The translations under genes were made by a program, and so were the position numbers. Of a stretch of 59,210 nucleotides of DNA, positions 2,897 to 45,200 are shown piece by piece; the first letter of the stretch is position 1, and every line of letters begins with the position of its first letter. The notes below the pieces were generated by a model. It was not told the DNA's origin, did no database searches, and saw only the letters and a program-made list of their open reading frames with translations. Source of the DNA: Haloarcula japonica DSM 6131 (GTDB taxonomy: Archaea; Halobacteriota; Halobacteria; Halobacteriales; Haloarculaceae); NCBI RefSeq assembly GCF_000336635.1, contig NZ_AOLY01000004.1, positions 1-59,210 of the forward strand, written 5' to 3'.

Positions 2897-3034
2897 GGTG
2901 GGACTGAAAGGGGCGAGGCGCTGGCGGACGGCGGGCGATGCAAGCACTGCACGAGCGACTGTAAGGAGCGAGGCAGCGCGCAGCGAGACCTCCGATGCCA
3001 GCGCCTCGGGGCTTTCTGGCTGTTCACAACAGCC
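2897..3034 (+). repeat. Structured intergenic element GGTGGGACTGAAAG...GGGGCTTTCTGGCTG, copy 1
   Basis: No protein is encoded here. The 5' motif (2897-2910) and the 3' motif (about 3008-3023) can pair through GAAAG and CTTTC. Between them is a perfect 12-bp stem, CGAGGCGCTGGC (2914-2925) with GCCAGCGCCTCG (2997-3008), enclosing about 70 nt. A second perfect hairpin, GGCTGTT-CAC-AACAGCC (3018-3034), closes the element like a terminator. Copies at 45018, 44958 and 29633 keep the end motifs but change or lose the inside. This is compatible with a structured RNA or a mobile hairpin; transcription is not shown. Confidence 0.65.
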
Positions 3035-3099: not shown

Positions 3100-4203
3100 A
3101 TGCGCGTCAGTGAGGGCCGAGTGACCGTCACGGTGCCGGAACAGCCCGACGCGGGGAAGGGCGCGGACGTGTTCTTCAACCCCGTCCAGGAGCTGAACCG
3201 CGACATCACCGTGGCGGCACTGCGGGCCTACCGAGAGCGAACCCCCCGCGTGTCGACGTACTTGGACGCCACCGCCGCCAGCGGCATCCGGGGCGTCCGC
3301 GCGGCGGCCAACGACTGGGAGACGACGCTGTGTGACATCGACGACGACGCAACGGCGCTGTGTGAGCAGAACCTCGAACGCAACGACCTCGCGGCCTCAG
3401 TCCGGCGGTCGGACGCGAACGTGCTTATGCACTCCGAGGCGTTCGACGTGGTCGACGTGGACCCCTTCGGGACGCCGATCCCCTTCGCCGACGCGGCCGT
3501 CCAGGGGACCAAACACCTCCTCTGTGTGACGGCCACCGACACCGCGCCGCTGTGTGGCGCGCACTTCGAGAGCGGCGTCCGCTCGTATGGGGCGGTCCCG
3601 CGAAACACCGAGTTCCACGCCGAGATGGGGATGCGCGTCCTCCTGTCGGCGATGGTCCGGACGGCGGCCCGCTACGACATCGCCGCCCGGCCGATTCTCA
3701 GCCACGCGACCAAGCACTACGCTCGGACCTATCTGGAGTTCGACCACGGCGCGAAGGTCGCCAACGACTGCATCGACGAACTGGGCTACGTCCACCACTG
3801 CCAGCACTGCCTCTGGCGCGACCACGACTACGGGCTCATCGCCGACCCACCCGAGGACTGTCCCGTCTGTGACAAACACCTCCAGACGGCCGGCCCCATC
3901 TGGCTCGGCCGGACCTGCGACCCAGCGTTCGCCGACGCCATCGCCGAGCAGGTCACGGAGGAAATGGGCACCGCCGACGAGGCGAAAGAACTGCTGGCGA
4001 CGCTCAGAGACGAAATCGACACGCCGACCCACTACGACCAGCACCGCCTCTGCAAGCGCTGGGGACGCGGCGCGGAAGCCATGGACGAGTTCATCGAGAA
4101 ACTCCGCGATGCTGGCTACGAGGCCTCCCGAACGCACTACGGCGGCACGACGTTCAAGACGGACGCCGACGTGGTGGAAATTCGCGAGGCGACGGCGGAG
4201 TAA
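3100..4203 (+). CDS. trm1: tRNA (guanine(26)-N2)-dimethyltransferase Trm1
   Basis: A 367-residue cytosolic enzyme that uses S-adenosylmethionine to form N2,N2-dimethylguanosine at position 26 of tRNA. The N-terminal methyltransferase domain shows [16 protein letters not shown], the SAM-binding loop, and VDVDPFGTP, the family's catalytic motif. The C-terminal half has paired cysteines HHCQHC and CPVC, typical of the Trm1 zinc-binding region. Length fits archaeal Trm1. The ATG at 3100 follows a structured intergenic element by about 65 nt, with a possible TATA box (CTTAACGG) near 3071. Confidence 0.95.
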
Positions 4204-29552: not shown

Positions 29553-29632
29553 AGTCGTCTAGAGGCGACTGCGCTACTTGAGCGGTTCGGACTAGGTGTG
29601 GATGGTGCTATCGTTGTGACCGTTGGTTTGAC

Positions 29633-29652
29633 CAGCCAGAAAGTCCCACCCA
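29633..29652 (-). repeat. Collapsed copy of the GGTGGGACTGAAAG...TTTCTGGCTG element
   Basis: On the minus strand the 20 nt join the outer halves of both end motifs: TGGGTGGGACT directly followed by TTTCTGGCTG. The inner half of each motif and the whole stem are absent. It lies in the 179-nt gap between the helicase and cupin genes, where nothing else is recognised. Full copies are at 2897 and 45018, and a 33-nt copy at 44958. Confidence 0.5.
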
Positions 29653-29731
29653 GCATAGCTCGTCTACTCGGCTGCATATGGGGCGGTTTGGCTCTCAGCT
29701 GTTGCTATTCCCGTGTAACTGCTGATGGCAG

Positions 29732-40219: not shown

Positions 40220-40324
40220 CGGGCACGGTGGGATTCGAACCCACGACCGTCGGATGTCTTCCCCCAATGGCAGCGCCAGCGGGGATAGAAGTCCGACGCT
40301 CTATCCGGACTGAGCTACGTGCCC
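40220..40324 (-). tRNA. tRNA-Arg (anticodon TCT) with a 30-nt intron
   Basis: On the minus strand GGGCACG pairs with CGTGCCC, the D arm has AGTCCGGATA, and the anticodon stem is TCGGA/TCCGA. The loop is CTTCTA then the intron (40256-40285) and then A, so the mature loop is CTTCTAA with anticodon TCT. The exon-intron joints form a textbook bulge-helix-bulge: GGA/TCC, bulge ACA, CTTC/GAAG, bulge TAT, CCCC/GGGG. Splicing would cut TA^T and AC^A. No CCA is encoded. Confidence 0.95.
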
Positions 40325-43837: not shown

Positions 43838-44866
43838 ATGATTTCCGAGGGCTGCGAACAGTGCGCCAAAGGCGGCAAGATGGTGCTGTTCGTCTACGGC
43901 TACTGCGACCAGCGAGACTGCTTCTACTGTCCCCTCGGGGAAAACCGCAAGAACGTCACCCAGATGTACGCCAACGAGCGTCCCGTCGAGGACGACGCCG
44001 ATGTCATCGAGGAGGCCAAGCGTATGAGCGCGCTCGGCACCTCAATCACGGGTGGCGAACCCCAGGAAGCCCTCGACCGGACCTGTCACTACCTGGAGCT
44101 GCTGAAAGACGAGTTCGGCGAGGACCACCACACGCACCTCTACACCGGCATCCCCGGCGGCCGCGAGAACATGCGCCGCCTCTCGGAAGCGGGGCTCGAC
44201 GAAATCCGCTTCCACCCGCCGCTGGAGCAGTGGGGCGACCTCCACGGGACCGAGTGGGAGGACATCCTCTATATCGCCCGCGAAGAAGGACTGACGCCGG
44301 CCTTCGAGATTCCCGGCATCCGCGCCGAGGAAGAGTTCTTGGAGTTCCTCGACGAGGGCGCGGCCGACTTCTGTAACATCAACGAGTTCGAGATGTCCGA
44401 CGGGAACTACCGCCGGATGCAGGAGGAGGGCTTCGAGCTGAAAGACGACCACATGAGCGCCGTCGAGGGCTCCCACGACATCCTGGAAAAGATGGGCGAC
44501 CACGAGAAGGTGTACTTCTGTACGAGCGTCTTCAAGGACGCCGCCCAGCACCGCTCGCGGCTCAAGCGCATGGCCCGTAACATCCGCCGCCCGTTCGACG
44601 ACGTGACCGACGATGGCACGCTCGTCTACGGGAAGGCCTGGACCACCGAAGCCCGACTTGAAACCCTCGGCGTCCCCGAGGAGTACTACACCGTCAAATC
44701 AGAGCACGTCGAACTGGCCTGGTGGCTGCTGGAGGAGATGGTCGAAGAGGGCGACGTCGAGAAGGGCGAAATCGTCGAGCAGTACCCGACCTACGACGGG
44801 ACGGTCGTCGAGCGGACGCCGCTGTCGAACAGTGCTGACGCCGGACGAGCGACGGCCGACGACTGA
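43838..44866 (+). CDS. Radical SAM protein (COG2108-like) with CX4CX2C motif
   Basis: 342 residues. LFVYGYCDQRDCFYCPLGENR is near the N-terminus; the three Cys are spaced CX4CX2C, not the common CX3CX2C. ITGGEPQEAL is the GGE motif for the SAM amino group. An N-terminal CEQCAKGG may bind a further metal. Relatives are described as related to pyruvate formate-lyase activating enzyme. The reaction is unknown. I chose the ATG at 43838 (MISEGCEQC); upstream frame residues are poor. Confidence 0.85.
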   Translation: MISEGCEQCAKGGKMVLFVYGYCDQRDCFYCPLGENRKNVTQMYANERPVEDDADVIEEAKRMSALGTSITGGEPQEALDRTCHYLELLKDEFGEDHHTHLYTGIPGGRENMRRLSEAGLDEIRFHPPLEQWGDLHGTEWEDILYIAREEGLTPAFEIPGIRAEEEFLEFLDEGAADFCNINEFEMSDGNYRRMQEEGFELKDDHMSAVEGSHDILEKMGDHEKVYFCTSVFKDAAQHRSRLKRMARNIRRPFDDVTDDGTLVYGKAWTTEARLETLGVPEEYYTVKSEHVELAWWLLEEMVEEGDVEKGEIVEQYPTYDGTVVERTPLSNSADAGRATADD

Positions 44867-44957: not shown

Positions 44958-44990
44958 GAACAGCCAGAAAGCCCTCGCGTTCAGTCCTAC
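44958..44990 (-). repeat. Reduced 33-nt copy of the GGTGGGACTGAAAG element
   Basis: On the minus strand GTAGGACTGAA is joined by CGCGA to GGGCTTTCTGGCTGTTC, so the end motifs are present but the long inner stem is missing. It faces away from the full copy 27 nt downstream, so the two form a head-to-head pair in the 334-nt gap (44867-45200) between the radical SAM gene and the membrane protein gene. Nothing else is recognised in that gap. Confidence 0.6.
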
Positions 44991-45017
44991 TCAGACCGGC
45001 TGATCAATCAGCAACAA

Positions 45018-45113
45018 GGTGGGACTGAAAGAAGCGGCTGGCTCCGGGAAGACGGCCGCTGCAAGGACCGCAGCAAGTCCCTCAACCGGAGCCAGCCGGG
45101 GCTTTCTGGCTCT
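45018..45113 (+). repeat. Structured intergenic element GGTGGGACTGAAAG...GGGGCTTTCTGGCT, copy 3
   Basis: The motifs at both ends match copy 1 (2897). The central stem is CGGCTGGCTCCGG (45035-45047) with CCGGAGCCAGCCG (45086-45098), a perfect 13-bp pairing whose sequence differs from copy 1, with 38 nt enclosed. Upstream it also shares CAGCAACA with copy 1. Conserved ends with an exchanged but still perfect stem point to selection on structure or to a hairpin-forming mobile unit. Confidence 0.65.
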
Positions 45114-45200
45114 CTGTGTCAATTATTACTAAACTAAACACTACTGTGCCGTCCGGCCTGAGTTTTATTTATCAGTCGGGTGAAAGTCAGGTACCCCTCC

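Follow-up and report, generated by a model that had tools for sequence, protein, structure and literature searches.

What kind of unit keeps its ends fixed while the paired stem between them differs from copy to copy? The question is raised by two sites (copies 1 and 3), 42 kb apart, in a 59,210-nucleotide stretch of DNA from Haloarcula japonica DSM 6131, the whole of which was analysed and is referred to here as the window. The sequence-only reading had described 14-nt ends common to both copies, and these match exactly at both sites; with up to two mismatches, the left 14-mer occurs at three places and the right 14-mer at five, against a mean expectation of 0.33 each. The stems, described as perfectly paired yet different, consist of 12 bp plus one G.T in copy 1 and 13 bp in copy 3, and the GAAAG/CTTTC pairing suggested as an extension continues the stem of both copies across a symmetric 3x3 internal loop. 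Both copies are single arms of a larger, dispersed two-armed repeat, whose parts in the window are as follows.

2900-3024 (+): copy 1, one arm, left arm missing; covariance-model match (CM R1) at 2900-3025, 100 bits, E 2.1e-21
2906-2910 (+): copy 1, P1 5' strand GAAAG, (nearly) invariant in 43 aligned arms
2914-2926 (+): copy 1, P2 5' strand CGAGGCGCTGGCG
2996-3008 (+): copy 1, P2 3' strand TGCCAGCGCCTCG
3012-3016 (+): copy 1, P1 3' strand CTTTC, then the outer end TGGCTGTT at 3017-3024
about 29632-29694: element with both arms collapsed, CCAGCCAGAAAGTCCCACCC-spacer-GGGGCGG-TTTGGCT; right side degenerate
44958-44990 (-): left arm of the copy 3 element, a remnant without stem, GTAGGACTGAACGCGAGGGCTTTCTGGCTG
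44991-45020: spacer of the copy 3 element
45021-45114 (+): copy 3, right arm of a second element; covariance-model match (CM R1) at 45021-45115, 78.6 bits, E 2.3e-16
45035-45047 (+): copy 3, P2 5' strand CGGCTGGCTCCGG
45086-45098 (+): copy 3, P2 3' strand CCGGAGCCAGCCG

Copy 1 has a histidine-kinase-like gene (1079-2809, +) on its left and a trm1-like gene (3100-4203, +) on its right, both named from their sequence, and is abutted upstream by two copies of a CTCAGTGCGATTACACAGCCAACAT-like unit (2850-2897) that is common to the element-bearing relatives. The collapsed left form of the element at 29632-29694 also occurs in two other genomes (G005 and G034) at different loci. In the Haloarcula japonica DSM 6131 genome as a whole, 10 hairpin-bearing arms plus remnants were counted. 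Some of these arms stand in divergent pairs, from which the true unit was recognized as a two-armed element.

The complete element consists of two outward-facing arms flanking a partly palindromic spacer of 24-31 bp, with ends GGGGCTTTC(TGGC)TGTT, and mostly measures about 200-400 bp. Its parts run in the order inverted outer end (AACAGCCAGAAAGCCCC), arm, inner motif CCCCTTTCAGTCCCRCCC, spacer, inverted inner motif, second arm, and second outer end. The fold of each arm is GGGACU-GAAAG-GGG-13 bp-apical helices-13 bp'-GGG-CUUUC; the 13-bp stem varies almost freely in sequence, whereas its length is fixed, as are the 3x3 GGG loop and the feet. Among the 184 arms of 92 complete elements, 165 retain the 3x3 loop, 95 have a 13-bp stem, and 29 have a 14-bp stem. 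At least 9 of the 13 stem positions are paired in 245 of 280 collected arms.

Compensatory change in the stem, proposed earlier from two copies, is borne out across the family. In 207 distinct stem pairs, a mean of 12.26 of 13 positions are Watson-Crick paired, compared with 6.87 after shuffling of the partners. When 43 arms are aligned, six helices emerge, with 31 consensus pairs, of which 21 carry double changes. These arms contain 279 double-change cells versus 84 with shuffled partners and at most 51 with slid partners, and the covariation score is 0.56 versus 0.15 and at most 0.08, respectively; the counts assume independent copies, an assumption that holds only in part, and the slid control preserves the relatedness among copies. 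A covariance model built from the same 43 arms, with the window copies left out, recovered copies 1 and 3 with the E-values listed above, and its third-best match in the window was the remnant at 44958-44990 (E 0.054).

The imperfect stem positions are asymmetric between strands. Read on the GGGACTG strand, they comprise 87 G.T/T.G and 19 A.C/C.A mismatches, and 38 versus 14 when two apical pairs are left out (p 0.001). Double-stranded DNA gives no reason for G.T over A.C, so either one strand folds or one strand meets C-to-T change; we take it that one strand is under selection to fold. The fold could also be that of a multi-copy host non-coding RNA, a small RNA or cis-regulatory hairpin selected at the RNA level, which several covarying helices, an invariant P1, conserved unpaired motifs, and strand-specific tolerance of G.U-type pairs would fit. 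Wobble pairs, however, occupy only ~3% of stem positions, which is low for an RNA helix, and neither GNRA nor UNCG tetraloops were found in 61 arms. Apical triloops on the GGGACTG strand are GNA in 20 of 31 cases, and the complementary TNC in 0 of 31. Mini-hairpins with GNA loops are exceptionally stable in DNA (PMC4686876), and the triloop and strand data together point to folding as ssDNA. Two arms of the Haloarcula japonica genome (L006 and L010; C5:134783-134901 and C37:550633) have an apical unit that by eye seems to be the reverse complement of that in most arms, and appear hard to square with a strict sequence requirement there.

Covarying stems could also arise with no selection on the fold, if template switching at inverted repeats copied one arm onto the other (quasi-palindrome correction) while the sequence drifted freely. 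Compensated stem changes are indeed far commoner than one-sided ones, and inverted repeats clearly recombine at the in-place inversion loci described below. Such copying would, however, correct the unpaired GGG/GGG loop beside the stem, which is retained, and it sits poorly with a stem length fixed at 13-14 bp, with strand-biased partner errors, and with apical helices P3-P5 that keep a conserved motif despite imperfect pairing. We regard this explanation as improbable.

The sequence-only reading would have been undone had no further copies existed in haloarchaea; copies are present in many genera. Across the class Halobacteria, 48 of 391 genomes, belonging to 20 of 86 genera, contain a strict pair pattern, and none contains its reversed control. 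Named carriers include Haloarcula, Halonotius, Halorarius, Haloterrigena, Natronococcus, Halohasta, and Halomicrococcus, with Haloarcula rara SHR3 among the rich ones, and the distribution is patchy. The exact motif GGGACTGAAAGGGG is found 0-76 times per genome across 19 genomes of the genus Haloarcula, and a single genome from another family contains 64 copies (reversed control 0), these counts being lower bounds because the pattern permitted no mismatch. No viral contig carries the strict pair pattern. Matches on plasmids with annotated records have no gene listed at their sites, in a gene table that is incomplete.

Judged by our own gene calls, all arms whose position could be assigned lie outside genes, and no orientation preference relative to the flanking genes was found. 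Strong outward hairpins located solely between genes might be expected of bidirectional terminators or other 3'-end elements of convergent genes. The pairs, however, occupy 29 tandem, 20 divergent, and only 7 convergent gaps, about as gap length predicts, and the flank consensus has no T-run after the arms, which makes this explanation very unlikely. A cis-regulatory or terminator role was rejected on the same grounds, gene context matching the baseline. The right flank of the pair on contig C5 is an accessory region. Y1 transposases (PF01797) were considered as partners and set aside: 15 of 21 carriers have them, as do 12 of 19 non-carriers, which shows no association. Several rich carriers lack them; the six of 21 carriers without PF01797 include the single-contig genome G120 with eight pairs, and it is absent also from G001 and G025.

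Comparison of orthologous loci reveals elements in many states. At the histidine-kinase/trm1 locus, the element of close relatives has an identical stem or a different one, has collapsed, or is absent, and one pair displays a compensated stem change (CCGGTCGCTCGAC in L089 versus CCGGCCGCTCGAC in L093). The htpX/pspAB locus ranges from a full element to a bare gap, and at the copy 3 locus the element is absent from the gap in all 15 other relatives inspected. Two loci show inversion in place. In one, a 323-bp element is 99% identical and in the same orientation with both flanks reversed (L391 versus L392); the other is L416 versus L417. By eye, the spacer of G003/G005 also looks reversed relative to that of G012. 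The element ends show no target duplication of 2-12 bp, and no clean pre-insertion site came to light. In a set of 114 complete elements, unlinked copies, which share no flanks, are ~73-81% identical over their longest matches, so no recent movement is seen. Two collapsed forms, GGGACTTTC and GGGGCTTTC, are both common, which fits arm deletion at CT or GGG microhomology better than a single precise empty site, a reading we discarded.

Two further kinds of insert came to light at these loci. At htpX/pspAB, modules of ~60 bp within an arm are present in one species and precisely missing from the same arm in another (L398/L425 versus L399/L416). They consist of two perfect short hairpins with conserved linkers (for example TAGCGAGGGACC...CGGACCATGCGAACGG...GTGAGCAGA), recur at L396, L397, L404, L405, and L410, and appear to be a second, nested family of double-hairpin inserts. 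Near copy 3, the last 50-100 bp of the gene ending at window position 44866 are repeated once or twice downstream in several relatives (L122, L123, L126, L127, and L128). A T-rich hairpin insert (..TTTTTCGAGGAGTGGT..ACCCGACGATGAAAAAGGT..) lies between the repeats, which gives the impression that it duplicated the gene tail and left the gene itself intact.

The two origins proposed for copies 1 and 3, a structured RNA or a hairpin-based mobile unit, can now be weighed. The mobile unit fits better, given a copy number of 0-76 within one genus, orthologous sites that are repeatedly empty or lost, in-place inversions, the lack of orientation preference, and the fact that 58 solitary arms have no sharp, promoter-like AT-rich block upstream of them. 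The host RNA fits worse for these reasons and is, in our judgment, unlikely. The earlier statement that no named haloarchaeal RNA matches agrees with a search of the Rfam 15 covariance models, which at gathering and lax thresholds gave no match at the arms. Elsewhere in the window, at 40220-40324 (-), lies a 105-nt tRNA match that is long enough for an intron.

We consider the repeat to be probably a non-autonomous, dispersed hairpin DNA element of haloarchaea, REPIN/SMR-like, that is moved in trans through a folded strand. We infer that the folding molecule is ssDNA in preference to RNA, that a protein recognizes it, and that movement is in trans. The unit is an inverted pair of arms facing out from a spacer and bounded by inverted ends. 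The arm strand GGGACTGAAAG...CTTTC would fold singly, most likely as ssDNA, into the conserved hairpin, whose feet (GGGACTGAAAG and CTTTC...TGTT) and GGG/GGG loop may be recognized by sequence and whose 13-bp stem may be recognized by shape and length only. An enzyme of the host, or one borne by a transposon, could then act in trans and move the element through its folded form. Such an element would be a small selfish DNA maintained through folding and single-strand handling, and its decay would proceed by loss of arms through short repeats; solitary arms, those of the window included, may be read as decayed elements. A more specific proposal, which we put forward tentatively and hold to be possible at best, is an undescribed class of archaeal mobile DNA in which a predicted recombinase excises, flips, and reinserts a structured single strand that it would know by feet and shape and not by the sequence of the stem, so that orthologues invert in place and exchange arms.

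The architecture defined here is exact and testable, and it describes plentiful intergenic DNA that has gone unannotated in haloarchaeal genomes, where the exact core motif occurs up to 76 times. It would extend REPIN-like biology to archaea with no evident RAYT. The natural in-place inversions and arm losses offer a system in which to look for an enzyme or repair pathway that processes hairpin DNA under high-salt conditions, and a 13-bp stem that is free in sequence and yet perfectly paired presents a clean case of selection on shape only.

Several known systems share part of this design. The attC sites of integrons have conserved ends and a variable palindromic middle, and one of their strands folds as ssDNA; the haloarchaeal elements, unlike attC sites, are outward pairs between genes and do not form cassette arrays. 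MITEs have ends that match a resident transposon and commonly a target duplication; no such duplication is seen at the ends of the haloarchaeal elements. REPINs are doublets of bacterial REP sequences that form hairpins (PMC3116915), and they likewise comprise an inverted doublet of a short conserved motif with a spacer, scattered in intergenic DNA, with solitary motifs taken as decayed doublets and compensatory changes on both sides of the hairpin. Each haloarchaeal arm differs in being a long hairpin of several helices whose 13-bp stem is free in sequence, in an archaeal host; its foot is GGGACTGAAAG with no class-wide GTAG/CGTC (GTAG appears in some spacers only), and it has no link to Y1 (RAYT-type) transposases. 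The small mobile repeats (SMRs) of Haloquadratum walsbyi are short, non-coding haloarchaeal elements with no target duplication, no assigned mobilizer, and inverted terminal repeats unrelated to known transposons (PMC3119063); the present family is likewise short and non-coding, with inverted ends, no target duplication, and no assigned mobilizer. SMR-A of Haloquadratum walsbyi, however, is ~110 bp long, inserts into PATE/IS605 ends, and has copies commonly >95% alike (PMC3119063), whereas the elements described here mostly measure ~200-400 bp, have highly divergent stems and unlinked copies only ~73-81% identical over their longest matches, and were not seen to target PATE/IS605, as judged against the published SMR description. 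The mitochondrial double-hairpin and repetitive hairpin-forming elements are also hairpin repeats that invade intergenic DNA with no function assigned (PMC2800124); they belong to other genomes and have other sequences, and the parts of that description available to us do not mention a class-wide covarying architecture or a 13-bp rule. A literature search of titles and abstracts, and with the motif letters, found no such haloarchaeal repeat described, most subscription journals lying outside its coverage. By analogy, the element may work like a REPIN and resembles the SMRs of Haloquadratum. As tested, it departs from each in a defining feature and is therefore filed with neither, which leaves it a previously unlabeled, dispersed two-armed repeat of haloarchaea.
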